Below, one piece after another: positions 18,235 to 55,128 of a stretch of 64,000 nt of DNA. The first letter of the stretch is position 1, and every line of letters begins with the position of its first letter. Position numbers and translations under genes: made by a program. The notes under the pieces were generated by a model. It worked only from the letters and a program-made list of their open reading frames with translations, was not told where the DNA came from and ran no database searches. The DNA is from Nostoc edaphicum CCNP1411 (GTDB taxonomy: Bacteria > Cyanobacteriota > Cyanobacteriia > Cyanobacteriales > Nostocaceae), in assembly GCF_014023275.1 (NCBI RefSeq), contig NZ_CP054698.1:3782001-3846000 (forward strand), in the 5' to 3' direction.

Positions 18235-18263
18235 TTGACAACAAATAATACATATACTACATT
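18235..18263 (+). promoter_or_regulatory. Candidate sigma70-type promoter of the Y-like RNA / Ro60 operon
   Basis: TTGACA at 18235-18240 is a perfect -35. A 17-bp spacer leads to TACATT at 18258-18263, a fair -10. Transcription would begin near 18270, about 35 bp before the first tRNA-like RNA, consistent with 5' maturation by RNase P (inference). Confidence 0.5.
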
Positions 18264-18305
18264 AATAATACAAGTCAACTTTCATTAGGGAGTTAGCTTT
18301 CACCA

Positions 18306-18439
18306 GTAGCGGATAGCTCAAATGGCAGAGCGCCCACCTTGCCCGGAAGGGCCGATGTATCGAGGGTTATCGCATATAACAAAAACACCCTTGATCAAAC
18401 TTCTGGAGGTGTAGGTAAAAATCCTACTTCGCTACAGCA
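18306..18439 (+). ncRNA. Y-like RNA 1, tRNA-like, degenerate copy
   Basis: An 8-bp acceptor stem can be drawn between GTAGCGGA (18306-18313) and TTCGCTAC (18428-18435), with one G-U pair, followed by A and GCA rather than CCA. The D-arm is GCTC/GAGC with GG in the loop (18316-18331). The T-stem is GTAGG/CCTAC but its loop is TAAAAAT, not TTCRANY. Between them lies the Y module: CCTTGCCC, a GGAA loop, GGGCCGATG and GAGGGTTATCG (18337-18372). No clean anticodon arm can be formed, and about 20 extra bases precede the T-arm. Compared with the next three copies this one is divergent and may be decaying or specialised. Confidence 0.75.
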
Positions 18440-18510
18440 AATAGAGTGCTGAGTGACGAATTTTAAATGTTTAACTCATAACTCCTCACTCTTAACTCAT
18501 AACTTTATAT

Positions 18511-18640
18511 GTGGTGGGTAGCTCAGTGGTTAGAGCGCCTAAACATCCTTATTCACCCCTTGCCTGAAAAGGCCGAAGAATTGAGGGTTATCGCCTGCCA
18601 AGCGGGAGGTCGCGGGTTCGATTCCCGCTCCACTACACCA
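18511..18640 (+). ncRNA. Y-like RNA 2: tRNA fold (anticodon GCC) with Ro-binding module inserted at 29/30
   Basis: The acceptor GTGGTGGG pairs with TCCACTAC (18511-18518 / 18629-18636) over 8 bp, then A and an encoded CCA (18638-18640). The D-arm is GCTC-AGTGGTTA-GAGC. The T-arm is GCGGG-TTCGATT-CCCGC (18612-18628). The anticodon stem is CCT plus GC pairing with GCGGG, with a 7-nt loop CTGCCAA. The 52 nt at 18541-18592 interrupt it exactly between positions 29 and 30. They form a Y-RNA Ro-binding helix: CCTTGCC, the loop TGAAAA, GGCCGAAG (bulged CG) and GAGGGTTATC. Compare GGUCCGA...GGGUUAU with CUUGACUAG in human Y RNAs. Without the insert the RNA is a complete 78-nt tRNA-like molecule. Confidence 0.88.
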
Positions 18641-18682
18641 AATCTAGTCCTGAATTTTTAATTTTTAATTTTTAATTTTCAT

Positions 18683-18811
18683 GTGGCGGGTAGCTCAGTT
18701 TGGTAGAGCGCTAAACATCCTTGTTCACCCCTTGCCTGCAAAGGCCGACGAATTAGGGTTATCGATTAGGGTTCGAGAGGTCGCGGGTTCAAATCCCGCT
18801 CCGTTACACCA
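18683..18811 (+). ncRNA. Y-like RNA 3: tRNA fold (loop TTAGGGT) with Ro-binding module
   Basis: The 8-bp acceptor GTGGCGGG / TCCGTTAC (18683-18690 / 18800-18807; three G-U pairs) is followed by A and an encoded CCA at 18809-18811. The D-arm is GCTC-AGTTTGGTA-GAGC and the T-arm GCGGG-TTCAAAT-CCCGC. The Y module is the 50-nt segment 18714-18763 (CCTTGCC, TGCAAA loop, GGCCGACG, AGGGTTATC). The bracketing anticodon stem would be CTA plus GA against TCGAG (18773-18777), with one A-G mismatch and a 7-nt loop TTAGGGT. Variable region AGGTC (18778-18782) and all tRNA spacings match copy 2. AGG as an anticodon is not expected in bacteria, which argues against a role in translation. Confidence 0.85.
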
Positions 18812-18856
18812 AATAATTTTGGATTAAATTTAAAATCCAAAATCCAAAATTTTCAT

Positions 18857-18984
18857 GTGGCAGATAGCTCAGTTGGTAGAGCGCCGAAAAACATCCTTGT
18901 TCACACCTTGCCTGAGAAGGCCGACGAATTAGGGTTATCGCCTCTTAAGCCGGATGTCGCAGGTTCAAATCCTGCTCTGCCACC
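18857..18984 (+). ncRNA. Y-like RNA 4: tRNA fold (anticodon CTT) with Ro-binding module
   Basis: The acceptor GTGGCAGA / TCTGCCAC (18857-18864 / 18976-18983) is eight Watson-Crick pairs; C 18984 follows, and no CCA is encoded (TTT comes next). The D-arm is GCTC-AGTTGGTA-GAGC and the T-arm GCAGG-TTCAAAT-CCTGC. The anticodon stem CCG (18884-18886) plus GC (18940-18941) pairs perfectly with GCCGG (18949-18953) around the loop CTCTTAA. The 53-nt insert 18887-18939 holds the Y module: ACCTTGCC, TGAGAA loop, GGCCGACG, AGGGTTATC. It ends 37 bp before the Ro60 start codon, so RNA and mRNA are probably cut from one transcript. Confidence 0.87.
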
Positions 18985-19020
18985 TTTCATTTTTGCCCGC
19001 AAGGGCCGGGAGATGAAGCG

Positions 19021-20622
19021 ATGAATTACAATTTTTTCACTAAAAAGAAGACAACTACACCCCAAAATCAACCTATCCCCGGACGAGAAGCAGAAATGGT
19101 TCAAGGACGTTCCGGCGCCTGGATGTTTGATGCTGGCATTTGGAAAATGCTGCGCCGTTGTTTGTTGGTTGGCACAGCAAAAAGCACTTACTACGCTGGT
19201 AAACAGGAATTAACAGAGGATTTTGTAACAGTTGTAAGACTTGCTGTTGCCGAAAATCCTGGACGTGTAGCAGAAGAAATTTTGTATGCTAGCGATGGAC
19301 GCGCCATCAATAACAGTGCGCCTATCTTGGCTTTGGTATTGCTATCGATGGGTGAAACACCAGAAGCAAAACAGGCATTTGGTGAAATATTCCCGCAAAT
19401 TGTCCGCACTGGTAGCCACTTCTACGAATGGCTGAACTACACCAAATCTCTGCGGGGATTTGGCAAAGTAGTGCGGGAAGCTGGTAAAACTTGGCTCTCA
19501 AGGGAAGATGTCAAAGGCTTGGCTTATCAACTGTTGAAATATCAACAGCGTCAAGGCTTCTCCCACCGAGATGCGTTGCGGTTGTTTCATGTCAAACCGC
19601 CTACAGAAAATCACCGTCAACTATTTGAGTGGGTAGTTAGAGGCTGGGAAGAATTGCCAGCAGACATCCCCTCAGAGGCGTTGGCGCAGATTTGGTGGTA
19701 TGAGTGGCTCAAGCGGAATCCCACCCAAACCCATGAAGCTATTTCTCAAGGACGCTTAACCCACGAAATGGCTGCACCTGTGGGCAAAATGGATAAGCAA
19801 GCTTGGCAGCTGCTATTTCAAGAAATGCCAATAGGTGCAATGTTACGTAACCTGGGTTCTTTAACTGAACTGGGTGTGTTACGAGCTGATGAAAACGCTA
19901 ATTTGCTCCAAGTGGAAGCAGTTCTTAATCGCAGAGAACATCTGCGTAAAGGTCGCATCCATCCGATTGATGTTTTGAAAGCACTCAAAACTTATGAATC
20001 TGGTGGAACATTAGGACGCAGTAAGAAAACTTGGAACCCAGTTCCTCGAATTGTGGACATTTTAGAAAAGGCGGTTGAACTGTCTTTTGATGTTGTCCAA
20101 CCCACAGGTAAAGTGTTCATGCACGCCGTAGACGTTTCTGGTTCTATGGGTAGCATGGTTGCAGATATGGGACTGACTTGCTGTGAAATTGCCACCACAA
20201 TGGCACTGGTGACAGCAAAAGCAGAGAAAAACTACATGATTCGCGGCTTTGCTACCGAATTCCGGGAATTAGGTATCACCGCCAAAGATAGTTTTAGTTC
20301 TGCGGTTCGCAAAGCTAGCAACCAAAACTTTGGTGGAACGGATGCATCTGTAGCTTACGACTGGATGATTAAGAATAAGTTCAAAGCTGATGTAGTCTGC
20401 TTTTGGACTGACTCGGAAAGCTGGGCTGGGTATAAGCATCCAAGTCAAGCGCTGAAGGAGTACCGCAAAAAGGTAAATCCCAACGTCAAGGCGGTGTATG
20501 TCACCTTGACACCTTACCAAATTACTTTGGTAGATCCTGAAGATTCGCTGTCTTGGGATTTGGCAGGGTTCGACCCAGGTACGCCTCGGATCATCCAGAT
20601 GCTTGGTGCGGGTGAATTGTAG
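19021..20622 (+). CDS. rsr: Ro60 orthologue (TROVE and von Willebrand A domains)
   Basis: The 533-residue protein starts at ATG 19021 with GGGAG 8 bp upstream. Residues about 20-365 form the helical-repeat TROVE ring. It contains family phrases such as MLRNLGSLTELGVL (about 274-287) and KGRIHPIDVLKALKTYESGG (about 310-329), which are very close to human Ro60. Residues about 366-533 are a von Willebrand A domain with a complete MIDAS motif (DVSGSMGS from Asp371) and GGTDAS. Ro60 binds the 3' ends of misfolded RNAs through its central hole and binds Y RNAs on its outer face. In bacteria it works with PNPase or other exonucleases. Four Y-like RNAs lie directly upstream and one downstream, so the operon encodes both protein and RNA partners. 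Confidence 0.95.
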   Translation: MNYNFFTKKKTTTPQNQPIPGREAEMVQGRSGAWMFDAGIWKMLRRCLLVGTAKSTYYAGKQELTEDFVTVVRLAVAENPGRVAEEILYASDGRAINNSAPILALVLLSMGETPEAKQAFGEIFPQIVRTGSHFYEWLNYTKSLRGFGKVVREAGKTWLSREDVKGLAYQLLKYQQRQGFSHRDALRLFHVKPPTENHRQLFEWVVRGWEELPADIPSEALAQIWWYEWLKRNPTQTHEAISQGRLTHEMAAPVGKMDKQAWQLLFQEMPIGAMLRNLGSLTELGVLRADENANLLQVEAVLNRREHLRKGRIHPIDVLKALKTYESGGTLGRSKKTWNPVPRIVDILEKAVELSFDVVQPTGKVFMHAVDVSGSMGSMVADMGLTCCEIATTMALVTAKAEKNYMIRGFATEFRELGITAKDSFSSAVRKASNQNFGGTDASVAYDWMIKNKFKADVVCFWTDSESWAGYKHPSQALKEYRKKVNPNVKAVYVTLTPYQITLVDPEDSLSWDLAGFDPGTPRIIQMLGAGEL

Positions 20623-20670
20623 ATATTGCTGAAGGGTAAAGGATGAAACACTTTATCCTTCATACTTCAT

Positions 20671-20778
20671 GGCGGGTTATCCTTGTTCGCAACTTGCCTT
20701 TCGGGGCCGAAGAATTTAGGGTTATCGGTTACGTCTCCACCATTGTGGGGATTAGCGGGTTCAACCCCCGCACCCGCC
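20671..20778 (+). ncRNA. Y-like RNA 5, downstream of Ro60, without D-arm
   Basis: A 7-bp perfect closing stem GGCGGGT / ACCCGCC (20671-20677 / 20772-20778) and a T-arm GCGGG-TTCAACC-CCCGC (20755-20771) are tRNA-like, but no D-arm exists. The Y module follows the acceptor almost directly: TATCCTTG, CTTGCC, a TTTCGG loop, GGCCGAAG and AGGGTTATCGG, at about 20678-20727. Next is a separate 6-bp hairpin CTCCAC-CATT-GTGGGG (20735-20750). T-rich DNA (TTTGTTTTT) after 20778 could act as terminator. It starts 48 bp after the Ro60 stop. No CCA is encoded. Confidence 0.82.
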
Positions 20779-22291
20779 TTTGTTTTTGATTTTACCTCAC
20801 GCAAATAAGAAGGCGATTTAATTTTTGAATGGTCGTTTTTCTATTTCAGCGATGGGTAAGAGTAGGGTTTTTTCGATGTGCGATCGCATCTGTCAAACTT
20901 CCTAGTTGCAATTATGCTAATTCAATCAAAAATCTTGCTATGAATGTGCTGCAAGATTTTTCACTTATTTCTAGACTATGAATTGCTTTTTTTACTTCCT
21001 CTATTTTTTGCTCAAATGGCAGTTTAGTAAGTATTTTTAGTGCTTTATTTAAGCTTATTTTGCTCTCCCCAAAAGCTTCTTTACTTTCGTTATTTTTTAT
21101 AATTTGATGTAAAAATATTCCTAGCTCGTGTAAGGTTATTCCCCTAAAATAATGACAACAAGCTAAAGAGAGAAGTACGTTAATCATTAATTTATCTTCT
21201 TTAACTCTTGTTGCAATCACTAAAGCTGTTTGAAAAAAATCTTGGCTTACTTTAAAACTTCTTTGGCAGTATTCAAATTCTTTGTTACTTTCTATAAGTT
21301 TTCCTTCTCTTTCATCAATTATTCCTAATCTGTGTGTAGTTAATGCAAATTTATAAAGTACTATGCCTAAGTTACTATAACAATCAATATATTCCAAAAC
21401 CATATTTCTGATAGCTTGAAAAAAAACATTGTCTAATAAATTTGGCTCTTGTCTTAAGTCCTCAAAACAACCTGCTCCATAAAACTCCATAGAATGATAA
21501 ACAATTTCTAAGGCAATAGTTTCCTGCTTAGTAAGTTCTTGTTTTACTGCTATTTCTGCATTTTCTATATTTAGATACATTTGTTCTTGAGTATCATTCA
21601 CTTTCGTGCAAGTAATTTTTGGGATAATTGTTTTGCAATTTTCAGATATTAATGTAGATAAAAATATTCCAGCTTTACCGTGAGATTGTTTCCAATCATC
21701 TGTTAATTTAAGTCTTTCTATCGCTTCTTGGCGGATAAGTTCATATAAATAGTATCCTTCACTGTTAAACTTCACTAAAGCTCTGTTTTTTAAATCCCTG
21801 AGAAATCGGAGTTTCTTTCGCTCATTTTGCTCATCCCAAAGTAAGCAAAAAATTCCTTTTTCAGATATTACAGGAATATATTGATAACGGTAACATCCTA
21901 AGCGACATAAAAGTTTATAGGCTTGGGGATTATCTTGTTGAAGTTTGTCAAACTGGCGTTGAACAAGTTTTTCTAGATTTTCTAAAGTTGGATGCCTCAA
22001 TAGATAATCACGATTATCCTGCCAGTAAACTTTTAAATTTCCTTGTGATTCCTTTAAAATTTCAGGACTCAGGAGAGACATAGCAAAGGCATTTCCGCCA
22101 TAGGCTCGATTTATTTCATAAAGAGCATCAGTATCTATAGTAATGTTGAAACTAACAAAATAATCCTCCCAAGCTTTATATTCCAACGCTTTTAGCCAAT
22201 AATATTGAAAATTTTTAAGCTTGATTAAGTCGGGTTCGTGCAGTAACTCACAGCTTGTGATTAGGGTGACTGACTGCACACTTTGATGAGC

Positions 22292-23433
22292 TATAGGACT
22301 AATATTTGATTTCTGAAAAAGCTCCGTACATTTGAAGAGTCGCAAAATCAAAGGTAGTGTGCCGGATAAACCACTCAAACATCCATTTGAGATGTGAGAA
22401 CGAAGGAATCAAGGCACAGAAACGCCGCACCCAGGTTTTAGCTTGTAACCAAATATCCTCAATTGGATTTTGTGACGGGCAATTAGGAGCAAAGCGGACG
22501 CAGTGAATTTTCCACTCCTCTTGAGACAAATCTTGGTTTACCTCGCCTAAAAAGTTTTGAACCAGATGTGAACGATGGTAAGAAGCACCATCCCCAAAAA
22601 AGAAGTAATCTTTGATTGGGGGGACTGATCTAATAAATAACGTAGATAATCAATTGTATTTTCTGAGTTACCTGCGTTATACGCTTTTAGTAGTAAGCTT
22701 CCCTCCAGATAGTCAACTGCCCCGTAGTATGTCTGTTTGTCTCGTATATTAACAACTCTCACTGCTATTTCTTGGTCAGTTTTTCCCCAGACATACCCAC
22801 TTAAATCTCCCCCACATTAAATGACACTCATCAAGCAGCAATACTCTCAACTTTCCTTCTTCAATTTCCTGCCGATGCCTTGCCAATAGTGTTTCAATCT
22901 CTTTTTTTTTTGCAGCAACAGCGTCCTCGTCAGCTTTTGGATTTAAAGAAGTAGTTTTCTTCCAACTAATTCCTGCCGCATCAAATAAGTCATAATAGCT
23001 CCGCTTTGACTCATAAGTTACATCATATTCAAAAGCCAATTTATATTCGAGTTCACCAAGTTCCCAACATTCTTTTGTTTGCAACCAACTTAAAACTTCT
23101 TCTCGTTGTTGAGCAGTTAAGTAACTTTTTTTTCCCTTGTGGTTCAGGCGCAGTCCCGAAATTCCATCTTCCTCATAAGCTTGCTTCCAGCTTGTTATCG
23201 AACCCAGTGACACATCTAAAATTGTTTGAATTTCCTCATACTTGTAGCCTTGATAAACCAATTTGACTGCCAACGCTTTCCTCACCTCACGCGCATCTGG
23301 GCGATCATCTATAAATTCTTGTAGTTCTGCGATCGCGGCTTGTAGATGCTGGTTTATCATTGTTAGCTATTAGACAAATATTCTGTCCGTATTATCTCGT
23401 AGTTTTTTTCAGAAATCAAATATGATTCCTATA
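22292..23433 (-). mobile_element. IS630-family insertion sequence, 1138 bp, TA target duplication
   Basis: Ends are near-perfect 27-bp inverted repeats: TAGGA(C/A)T(A/C)AT, then ATTTGATTTCTGAAAAA, with two mismatches. They lie at 22294-22320 and 23405-23431. They are flanked by TA at 22292-22293 and 23432-23433, the expected IS630/Tc1 target duplication. The element splits the STAND ATPase gene. Confidence 0.92.
22299..23360 (-). pseudogene. IS630 transposase, two frameshifts
   Basis: The transposase starts at ATG 23360 with an HTH region (YKYEEIQTILDVSLGSITSW) and the first catalytic aspartate in LLLDECHLMWG. The frame then shifts near 22800 at a run of five G (the expected DLSGYVWGKT continues in another frame). 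It shifts back near 22622 at a run of six C. The second aspartate (FFFGDGASYH) and the glutamate (PSQNPIEDIW) are present in the restored frame. The two shifts cancel, so all DDE residues survive but no single frame spans them. Sequencing error or homopolymer slippage are alternatives to real decay. Confidence 0.85.
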
Positions 23434-24160
23434 GTACTGTTAATAGTTCTATATAGTTACTATTATGTGATTTTATGAATTCACCATTTATCAAAGCAAA
23501 TTCAAGATGATGAATTAACACGCCGATTCTATGCTCTTGGAGCTTGCTTTTAAATTGCTCCATCAAAGTCATAAAATCTTGTTCTGGATTCTCTTTAAAA
23601 TGATATCTGAGCGTGACGCTAACCCAATCTTCTAATGAGTTGAGGTTTTGGGGTGTAGTTCCTACACGCAGATCAAGATATTCTAAACCTTGAAGCTCAA
23701 ACCATTTTGTAGCCAAGGTTGTTTTACCTATACCACCCTCTGAGTGAATTAGAATAACTTTTGCACCTTTGTTAACTAGTTCATCGAGGTCTGCGATCGC
23801 ATCCTCACGCCCCACAAAATCAGAATTTTTTGATGTTGAATTTTGATGTTCCTCTGTTTGAGATTTGCAAACTGGAATATCAACTATCTCTTGCCAATTT
23901 AGACCAAGCCTTTTACAAATTTCTTCAAAATTAAGGCGTTCAATTGGGATTATACGAAAGAAATTAGTAACTGTTGCGCGAGATAGTCCTAAATCTCTTG
24001 CTAAAGCAGTCTTATTTAAACTATTACGGATCAAAGCTTGATTTGCTTTTGCGATACCTTCTGTAGATGCCTGAAGCCCTCGCTTGGTCATATTCTAACT
24101 ACGCAATTTTTAATCATTTTAACTGAGCTAATTAAAAGTCATACACACTCATACACCAAG

Positions 24161-53576: not shown

Positions 53577-55128
53577 ATTGCAATTCATCAAAATCCCTAT
53601 TAGGGATTGAAACAATCAGCAAAAATCAAGTCTTCGGTATATTCACTATTGCAATTCATCAAAATCCCTATTAGGGATTGAAACAAACCAATCACCAGAT
53701 CAAAAATGGCTTGAACAGATACGAATTGCAATTCATCAAAATCCCTATTAGGGATTGAAACGTTGTTTTCAAGTTTCTTGAGGCGCTTATCAAAAGATTG
53801 CAATTCATCAAAATCCCTATTAGGGATTGAAACGATGATAGCAGTATGTGAAATTCTCCATAATTTCAATTGCAATTCATCAAAATCCCTATTAGGGATT
53901 GAAACTTCCACTGCCTAAACATCCAATCAGCAGTAGATTGAAATTGCAATTCATCAAAATCCCTATTAGGGATTGAAACTTTCCATCTCGCCTTCAAACA
54001 GAATTCAGCTAAAATTGCAATTCATCAAAATCCCTATTAGGGATTGAAACGTCAAGCGATCACCTGTAACAGTGTTGAGACTATCATTGCAATTCATCAA
54101 AATCCCTATTAGGGATTGAAACGGACACCAGATCAACAGTTCTTTGCCCTTGGCGGATATTGCAATTCATCAAAATCCCTATTAGGGATTGAAACTTGCC
54201 TTAATTCTGCATCTAGTGCCAGCCAAGAAAATTGCAATTCATCAAAATCCCTATTAGGGATTGAAACCAATCACATTTCCGCAATCACATTGTAATCGCC
54301 ACATTGCAATTCATCAAAATCCCTATTAGGGATTGAAACTTATGCCAGATACAAGGGAACAACAGACGTAGTGCTATCAATCAAAATCCCTATTAGGGAT
54401 TGAAACTTATGCCAGACCTCCTCCGGTTCGACGGTACTATCATTGCAATTCATCAAAATCCCTATTAGGGATTGAAACATTGCTTTCATCCTTATATTGG
54501 AAACACTTATAAAATTGCAATTCATCAAAATCCCTATTAGGGATTGAAACTCGGTGATGTCTTTACCACCAGGAGTAAACAATGATGGATTGCAATTCAT
54601 CAAAATCCCTATTAGGGATTGAAACTCGATGTTGTGATATACCCTTTTTACACCGGAGTATTGCAATTCATCAAAATCCCTATTAGGGATTGAAACCATA
54701 CAGGACTTAAGGTTAAGTACATATTCCCTAGATTGCAATTCATCAAAATCCCTATTAGGGATTGAAACTGAAACGTAATAAGCTATTACTGTATCTGTTG
54801 TTTATTGCAATTCATCAAAATCCCTATTAGGGATTGAAACATAACTAATGATTATTTACTAAACTTTCTACCCTTATTGCAATTCATCAAAATCCCTATT
54901 AGGGATTGAAACTTATTGAAAAAACAACATAACCGTCGGGTAATACTATTGCAATTCATCAAAATCCCTATTAGGGATTGAAACATTTCAGCCGGCAGTT
55001 GCTCAACAATTTCTATGAGCATTGCAATTCATCAAAATCCCTATTAGGGATTGAAACGCTGAATTTAGCTGTCTGTGGGGTTCTACGTTGGATTGCAATT
55101 CATCAAAATCCCTATTAGGGATTAAAAC
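53577..55128 (+). CRISPR. Type I-D CRISPR array, 22 repeats of 37 nt, 21 spacers
   Basis: Repeats begin ATTGCAATTCATCAAAATCC and end CTATTAGGGATTGAAAC (37 nt). They contain an AATCCC-tatta-GGGATT hairpin and give an ATTGAAAC handle. Repeat starts include 53577, 53648, 53725, 53797, 53869, 53943, 54014, 54086, 54159, 54231, 54303, 54442, 54514, 54589, 54660, 54732, 54804, 54876, 54948, 55021 and 55092. Repeat 12 (54379-54406) is truncated to about 28 nt. Spacers are mostly 34-40 nt. The last repeat has ATTAAAAC instead of ATTGAAAC, marking the leader-distal end. Confidence 0.98.

Follow-up and report, generated by a model that had tools for sequence, protein, structure and literature searches.

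In this study, we analyzed a stretch of 64,000 nucleotides (nt) from the 8.3-Mb genome of the cyanobacterium Nostoc edaphicum CCNP1411 (contig NZ_CP054698.1, positions 3,782,001 to 3,846,000 of the forward strand), hereafter called the window, which contains a gene for the protein Ro60 (Rsr). The gene is flanked by five RNA units that resemble both transfer RNA (tRNA) and Y RNA, four of them upstream (units 1 to 4) and one downstream (unit 5), and two topologies, types A and B, could be distinguished among them. The features of the locus are as follows (positions are those of the window; bp, base pairs; aa, amino acids):

18235..18275, plus strand: predicted promoter TTGACA-N17-TACATT with a conserved surrounding element (TAATACANNTACTACATTAATAATACAAG), upstream of unit 1
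18306..18439, plus strand: unit 1, type B; acceptor stem 18306-18313/18428-18435, D-arm, lower Y stem, separate upper helix, T-arm, tail AGCA
18511..18640, plus strand: unit 2, type A; 8-bp acceptor stem, D-arm, upper and lower Y stem with a GAAA loop, then a variable hairpin and the T-arm
18683..18811, plus strand: unit 3, type A; loop GCAA, ACCA encoded, third acceptor pair G.U
18857..18987, plus strand: unit 4, type A, gene-proximal; loop GAGA, acceptor stem ending at 18983 and followed by CTTT, without CCA
18985..19018, plus strand: hairpin of the Ro60 mRNA leader (mini Y lower stem); the Shine-Dalgarno sequence, 19008-19012, is its 3' strand
19021..20622, plus strand: Ro60/Rsr gene, 533 aa; DVSGS of the MIDAS type retained; K, R and H aligned with K170, R174 and H187 of the Xenopus protein
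20671..20778, plus strand: unit 5, type A lacking a D-arm; UUCG-capped Y stem, then a large hairpin and the T-arm

Domain searches with the open reading frame (ORF) at 19021-20622 identified vWA_Ro60 (8e-38) and TROVE (3.4e-18), and the PDB entries 2nvo (Rsr, 2.4e-73) and 1yvp (Xenopus Ro, 2.9e-73) were also matched. These matches bear out the TROVE-vWA Ro60 gene called by a first-pass annotation of the same DNA, and the product is accordingly a Ro60 ortholog. The residues equivalent to positions 170, 174 and 187 of Xenopus Ro are K, R and H, as in Ro itself (PDB alignment, positions counted by hand). K170, R174 and the MIDAS motif have known functional roles in Ro. H187 has been described as essential for the contact with Y RNA (PMC4030889). 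By Ro60 protein, the nearest named relatives are Nostoc strains, the best of which share 97–99% identity.

In the type A units 2 to 4, the 5' half is composed of an 8-bp acceptor strand, UA, a D-arm, two or three pairs left of an anticodon stem and an upper Y strand (AUCCU..UUC). It is followed by a lower Y strand (CUUGCC), a tetraloop, the opposite lower Y strand (GGC[C]GA, the bulged cytosine in brackets) and the opposite upper Y strand (GAAU..AGGG) with UUAUC, and the 3' part contains a variable stretch, the T-arm and the second acceptor strand, after which ACCA is encoded in units 2 and 3. The third acceptor pair of unit 2, as that of unit 3, is G.U. The arms thus stand in the order acceptor, D-arm, Y stem, T-arm, acceptor, as in tRNA, with 8 instead of 7 acceptor pairs, and the Y stem sits in the position of the anticodon arm; none of the units has an anticodon. 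Within the Y stem, CUUGCC lies opposite GGC[C]GA, followed by AGGGUUAUC, and the distal end is closed by the tetraloop. Unit 1 has the lower Y stem UUGCC-C-GGAA-G-GGC[C]GA, and its upper helix, AUCGAGGG/CCCUUGAU, is separate and located 3' of the lower Y hairpin, such that the tRNA body joins at the internal loop of the Y stem. Unit 5, as read from its sequence, has a 7-bp acceptor stem (GGCGGGT/ACCCGCC) and no D-arm. Thus, one operon is predicted to hold both topologies.

The Ro-type stem with its bulged cytosine (GGC[C]GA opposite UUGCC) is present in all five units of the window, which supports the Y-type Ro-binding core proposed in the first-pass annotation; the bulge beside GGC..GCC, given there as CG, is better read as a single C. 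The tRNA-type arms and closing stems described there hold for the acceptor and T-arm of every unit, with the reservation that unit 5 has the shorter acceptor stem and lacks a D-arm. The intervals between units 2 and 3 (18641-18682) and between units 3 and 4 (18812-18856) consist of AT-rich short direct repeats (AATTTTTAATTTTT... and AATCCAAAATCC...).

Among known RNAs, the units most resemble the YrlA RNAs, whose Rfam consensus has the order Y 5' strand, T-arm, acceptor-like hairpin, D-arm and Y 3' strand. The stem of YrlA is described as built from its 5' and 3' ends (PMC8394870), and a solved bacterial Y RNA has been reported to superpose on tRNA as a circular permutation (PMC11472068). All the tRNA-like arms of YrlA are present in the window units, except for the D-arm of unit 5. 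In units 1 to 4 the D-arm precedes the T-arm, the reverse of YrlA, and the ends, as far as the sequence can be read, would form an acceptor stem and not the Ro-binding stem. Compared with tRNA, the acceptor, D- and T-arms are in the same order (apart from the missing D-arm of unit 5), and the anticodon arm is replaced by the Y stem. The type A units share the cyclic order of YrlA, but their ends fall within the acceptor stem and a loop closes the Y stem. They are therefore best described as a circular permutation of YrlA, with the break in the acceptor stem rather than in the Y stem, and the order of tRNA is thereby restored.

The register of the units was examined in 80 named loci, in which 250 units were placed by their D- and T-arms alone (from 394 overlapping core matches, of which 123 without D-arm and 21 without T-arm were dropped). 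All eight acceptor pairs were present in 226 of these units. The 57 distinct pairs of acceptor strands formed 437 pairs, compared with at most 387 in 5000 permutations. When neighboring units differed in both strands, pairing within the unit was better than pairing across units in 65 of 86 comparisons, equal in 18 and worse in 3. In addition, 289 Y stems matched by a pattern of fixed loop length, with six bases between the lower strands, had GNRA loops in 249 cases and UUCG in 11, flanked by T-A (239), C-G (27) or T-G (18); the two sets of loci used, L001-L030 and L031-L110, may share species. Units that stand alone, for example unit 5 and the only upstream unit of locus L107, are complete in the acceptor register, and all three lines of evidence support this register.

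Two covariance models were built from relatives, R1 for type A (42 sequences, including units 2 to 4) and R2 for type B (14 sequences, including unit 1). With E values up to 10, R1 found exactly five matches in the 64-kb window (135.3, 134.9, 132.1, 42.7 and 30.6 bits), in agreement with the five RNAs of the first-pass annotation, all of which were found where it had placed them. Units 4, 2 and 3 scored 135.3, 134.9 and 132.1 bits, respectively, all three being training members, and unit 5 scored 30.6 bits in a match drawn longer (20634-20779) than the unit as read. Unit 1 scored 152.7 bits with R2, of which it is also a training member. Beyond the three array units, the best R1 matches in the same genome were 77–79 nt long and scored at most 49.2 bits; the five best of these were ordinary tRNA genes.

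Existing tools did not name any of the units, as the first-pass annotation had anticipated. At gathering scores, Rfam gave nothing at the Ro60 locus, and ARAGORN called neither tRNA nor transfer-messenger RNA (tmRNA) in the window and made no call in the 10 related loci given to it. The YrlA family (RF02553) reached 35.6 and 30.6 bits at the locus compared with a gathering score of 69, in matches that span two units each (18569-18741 and 18755-18917), and none of 292 genomes of the phylum contained a match above this cut-off. The tRNA family (RF00005) reached no more than 20.4 bits here, below its gathering score of 29, and passed gathering in some related units, with up to 52 bits, while the tmRNA family (RF00023) scored 23.4 bits over a 51-nt stretch and did not reach its gathering score of 47. 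The covariance search suggested earlier thus stayed below gathering with RF02553, and the new model from relatives recovers the five units.

The occurrence of the RNA closely followed that of Ro60. Among 145 genomes of the family, 84 matched the Ro60 protein and 73 carried R1 matches at 1e-12; the RNA was present in 73 of the 84 Ro60-matching genomes and in none of the 61 others (Fisher 6e-30, uncorrected for kinship). It should be noted that in 8 of the 11 Ro60-matching genomes without the RNA (G005, G024, G028, G030, G048, G058, G087 and G093) the Ro60 matches were only partial, and that another of the 11, G055, carried a type B unit (135.1 bits) as well as other units. In the 292 genomes of the phylum, a sample overlapping the family set, 28 passed R1 at 1e-10. 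Six of these (G191, G205, G246, G249, G261 and G324) were left out because their sole matches were 77 nt long, the length of ordinary tRNA; no Ro60 vWA domain was found in these six. The remaining 22 all had the Ro60 vWA domain, which was present in 28 genomes of the phylum. The other six vWA-positive genomes were G055 and G126 (family) and G162, G164, G181 and G183 (outside the class). In Picosynechococcus PCC 7002, three units lie 5' of the Ro60 gene on plasmid pAQ7.

Covariation was assessed in narrow and wider sets of sequences. In the narrow sets, 12 of 36 pairs (type A, 42 sequences) and 9 of 33 pairs (type B, 14 sequences) were altered on both sides. The wider sets were taken by model score (below 1e-13 and 1e-14) from 26 and 22 hand-chosen sources, window included, and the fitting of their alignments to the model introduces a bias in the model's favor. 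Double-sided changes were found in 30 of 36 pairs of type A (50 units, 95.2% of cells paired) and in 16 of 33 pairs of type B (24 units, 23 distinct, 96.3% of cells paired). None of 500 shuffles reached any of the five measures, and slid controls paired only 37–53% of cells. On the basis of these alignments, both topologies covary across cyanobacteria, including their acceptor, D- and T-arms. Because such units are found next to Ro60 in dozens of cyanobacteria and show covariation, they are more than a product of chance. Folding of single sequences gave weaker support, with z-scores of -2.87, -1.70, -0.54, -2.35 and -2.18 for units 1 to 5.

The organization of the locus supports the Ro60 operon of the first-pass annotation. 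The predicted promoter agrees with the consensus at 10 of 12 positions, but the region's five promoter-like sites were not above shuffles (mean 4.4). In 69 of the 80 named loci a TTGAC-type match was present upstream, followed by TACATT in 62 of the 69. Co-transcription of the array and the gene is proposed solely because one conserved promoter precedes the array. The promoter flank, TAATACA..TACTACATTAATAATACAAG, is unusually conserved and covers the -10 and start region; it could be an operator. No further site of the promoter element was found elsewhere in the genome with up to three mismatches, and a regulon sharing it was rejected, the pattern occurring once in this genome.

By a simple pattern, zero to five upstream units were counted in 81 loci (none in 6 of them, two to five in 68), together with one downstream unit in 20; these counts are lower bounds, as the pattern overlooks units (L101 and L109 hold more) and some contigs end early. 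The number and tandem order of the units, which the first-pass annotation considered new, are therefore common features, and co-transcription with the gene would not be new either, given that the Salmonella rsr-yrlBA-rtcBA operon has already been described (PMC7790460). Three other points go beyond that annotation, namely the circular permutation relative to YrlA, the two topologies per operon and the mini Y stem at the Shine-Dalgarno sequence.

This mini Y stem, UUUU-GCC-C-GCAA-G-GGC-[C]-GGGAG, folds at -14.4 kcal/mol, and RNAfold draws its bulge as 2 nt, CG. Across loci, it is located between the final unit and the start codon, and the pattern consists of a U-run, GCC/GGC with a closing pair, a GNRA loop, a bulged pyrimidine and a GGGAG-like Shine-Dalgarno sequence. 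It was identified in 76 of 81 loci, the other five having similar sequences that fail the pattern, and its strands were GCCC/GGGC in 40 cases and GCCU/AGGC in 29, with a GNRA loop in 68 of the 76. A stricter pattern matched 65 of 80 loci, whereas shuffled leaders (mononucleotide) matched in a mean of 0.005 loci and coding-sequence 48-mers in 0 of 2400. Because the leader copies the Ro60 binding site, translational feedback is the simplest reading, and the hairpin suggests that free Ro60 may act in this way.

Taken together, the five RNAs are probably Y RNAs that bind Ro60 and have a circularly permuted form with tRNA-type ends; we infer the binding itself from the Y stem. Several observations weigh against this conclusion. 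The training units of R1 and R2 were chosen for perfect 8-bp acceptor and 5-bp T stems, which are 100% paired by construction, and the further pair types in the narrow sets were no more numerous than in shuffles (of 500 shuffles, 500 and 465 were at least as high). Free folding reproduces the complete proposed structure for units 2 and 5 only; the folds of units 1, 3 and 4 deviate partly from it, and that of unit 3 is no better than those of its shuffles. The duplex energies of types A and B overlap in many units, and strings of A and B assigned from duplex energy were not used as type counts, some type A units being borderline (for example, the second unit of L031). As for distribution, genomes of the same class with a Ro60 vWA domain had R1 matches longer than 100 nt in 22 of 24 cases. 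G126 has a distant Ro60 (32%) with only ordinary tRNAs beside it, G085 has a full-length Ro60 match and no R1 or R2 unit in the 2.4 kb upstream, and the Nostoc locus L053, a close relative, has just a 26.1-bit match; it may have lost its units. Finally, ordinary tandem tRNA genes score about equal to or higher than the units with the YrlA model (tRNA-Arg pairs of the phylum about 32–37 bits, other tRNA neighbors up to 45), so that an RF02553 match alone proves nothing, and the use of YrlA bit scores as proof of kinship was rejected.

Three other explanations have to be considered. The precise way in which RF02553 aligns at 18569-18741 and 18755-18917 would fit conventional YrlAs in the other register, each starting halfway through one unit and ending halfway through the following one, so that their ends would form the Y stem and the acceptor arms a hairpin inside. 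Such a register is very unlikely and was rejected, because the acceptor strands pair inside units, the Y stems are mostly closed by GNRA or UUCG loops, and isolated units (unit 5 and the single unit of L107) are complete in the acceptor register, which would be impossible in the other; the array also starts and finishes with acceptor strands. That the units are tRNA genes without a Ro60 function, either decaying into pseudo-tRNAs or interrupted by an insert in their anticodon arm, appears the most improbable of the three. Although the arms of the body are tRNA-like and related units exceed the RF00005 gathering score with up to 52 bits, the Y stem is conserved and covarying, no anticodon is present, ARAGORN is silent on the window and 10 related loci, and matches longer than 100 nt were confined to Ro60-matching genomes in the two samples searched.

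It is also quite unlikely that the units belong to the leader of the Ro60 mRNA and have a role in processing or regulation, being bound by Ro60 for autocontrol and releasing no free Y RNA. Most units do lie between a conserved promoter and the gene, and the leader itself bears a mini Y stem; however, a downstream unit is present in 20 of the 81 loci, and complete acceptor stems, many with an encoded CCA, point to a tRNA-like excision.

If the units are tRNA-terminated Y RNAs, one transcript from the promoter 5' of unit 1 would span the array and the gene, and tRNA enzymes (RNase P, 3' processing and CCA addition) would excise the units. Ro60 would bind each unit via the Y stem on the outer surface of its ring. 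The tRNA body, useless for decoding as it has no anticodon, might tether or gate a partner such as PNPase, as in RYPER, in which Y RNA is reported to tether Ro60 to PNPase (PMC8058203, PMC7790460, PMC4726728). Free Ro60 on the mini Y stem at its own Shine-Dalgarno sequence would repress translation until Y RNA suffices.

A more speculative extension is that some units are matured as tRNAs, charged with alanine and deliver Ro60 to a translation-linked partner, the leader mini Y stem serving as a homeostat of Ro60 and Y RNA. The determinants for alanine are a G.U third acceptor pair and A as the next base, as in tmRNA. In 127 units of named loci with a perfect 8-bp acceptor stem and D-arm, the third pair was G.U in 36 of 50 units with xCCA and in 1 of the 77 others. 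In the wider sets, uncorrected for kinship, it was G.U in 10 of 15 type B units with CCA versus 1 of 9 without, and in 6 of 13 type A units with CCA versus 4 of 37 without. We regard this possibility as unlikely, since the link between G.U and CCA is weaker in the diverse sets and kinship was not corrected for.

Loci outside the family provided further comparisons. The order T-arm before D-arm was found near Ro60, with no overlapping tRNA match, in two loci of the phylum that lie outside the class, L111 and L114, and also in Gordonia phage Sixama (L159), a Bosea plasmid (L160) and Microbacterium phage FuzzBuster (L161); all five score below the YrlA gathering cut-off, and in L160 and L161 the match is limited to the central part of the model. 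No match to the YrlA model was found in phage Myrna (L158). Among four more Ro60 loci outside the class searched with E values up to 0.01, a YrlA match was present in L186 and absent from L184, L185 and L187. L186, from an assembly with 7% contamination, has two matches within 3 kb of one Ro60 gene, both on the minus strand: a conventional YrlA match at 1920-2021, with 38.4 bits, and, at 627-756, a unit of 130 nt that scores 46.1 bits by R1 and has GGCCGAAG and ends of the acceptor type. The best Rfam label of the latter is tRNA-Sec (35.1 bits, gathering 47), and it may be something other than a Y-like RNA; it is possible that L186 represents an intermediate between the conventional and the acceptor-ended forms. 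L188, which comes from a different family within the class of the window genome, has a type B unit and a type A unit back to back. A separate observation in L184 is a match to the nematode small RNA family RF01656 (4031-4096, minus strand, 37.4 bits, gathering 38). A viral source for Ro60 was rejected, as a scan of viral contigs revealed no relative of this Ro60 and phage Ro60 proteins are distant (identity at most 34.2% among the best 40 of 345 matches).

Elsewhere in the window, a CRISPR (clustered regularly interspaced short palindromic repeats) array is located at 53577-55128 (22 RF01318 matches). On the minus strand, 20912-24091 contains apparent pieces of one AAA/NACHT-type regulator, a label that is a guess, with ORFs in between: 23429-24091 has a weak AAA_16 match below the cut-off, 20912-22378 has no solid Pfam match, and an ORF between them (22776-23360) has helix-turn-helix domains of the transposase type, as if the regulator had been split by an insertion element.

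In the literature searched, no earlier description of the cyanobacterial permuted form was found; a 2014 survey of bacterial Y RNAs (Chen) lay outside that scope. This survey is said to span over 250 bacteria and phages, and cyanobacterial RNAs may already be in its lists, possibly in another register. If the proposed structure is true, it suggests that Ro60 needs the stem and the tRNA-shaped module in space, and that the order of the chain is secondary. An acceptor-ended Y RNA would be expected to serve as a substrate for RNase P and for CCA addition, and perhaps for aminoacylation, making the reason for the tRNA mimicry of bacterial Y RNAs directly testable. It also provides a rule for finding Y RNAs that searches with the usual motif order could overlook or fuse across neighbors, and the leader hairpin suggests a testable way in which the amounts of Ro60 and Y RNA could be matched.

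Compared with known systems, the units share with YrlA the position next to the Ro60 gene, the Ro-binding stem and the D-, T- and acceptor-like arms around a tRNA-like core in the same cyclic order; they differ in that the ends lie in the acceptor stem, the D-arm precedes the T-arm and the Y stem is capped by a loop, and RF02553 scores 35.6 bits against a gathering score of 69. In human Y RNA, GGGUUAU stands next to the bulged-C stem, like in the units. With animal and Deinococcus Y RNAs they have in common the lower stem with the bulged C, described as the main Ro60 contact (PMC4030889), although the stem of those RNAs is formed by the 5' and 3' ends, whereas the strands in the units are reversed and joined by a loop. 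Like tmRNA, they have tRNA-like ends and carry a long insert where the anticodon arm would be, and some have the G.U third pair and an encoded CCA, but they contain a Y stem instead of an mRNA domain. Finally, in natural circularly permuted RNAs (hammerhead, twister, 5S rRNA, group II introns, and the genes of signal recognition particle RNA and tmRNA) the structure is likewise the same and the ends or gene order lie elsewhere. Neither Y RNA nor YrlA occurs (0 occurrences) in the available part of a catalogue of such RNAs (PMC10085705), and if the present reading is true, Y RNAs would join this short list of natural RNAs with circularly permuted forms.

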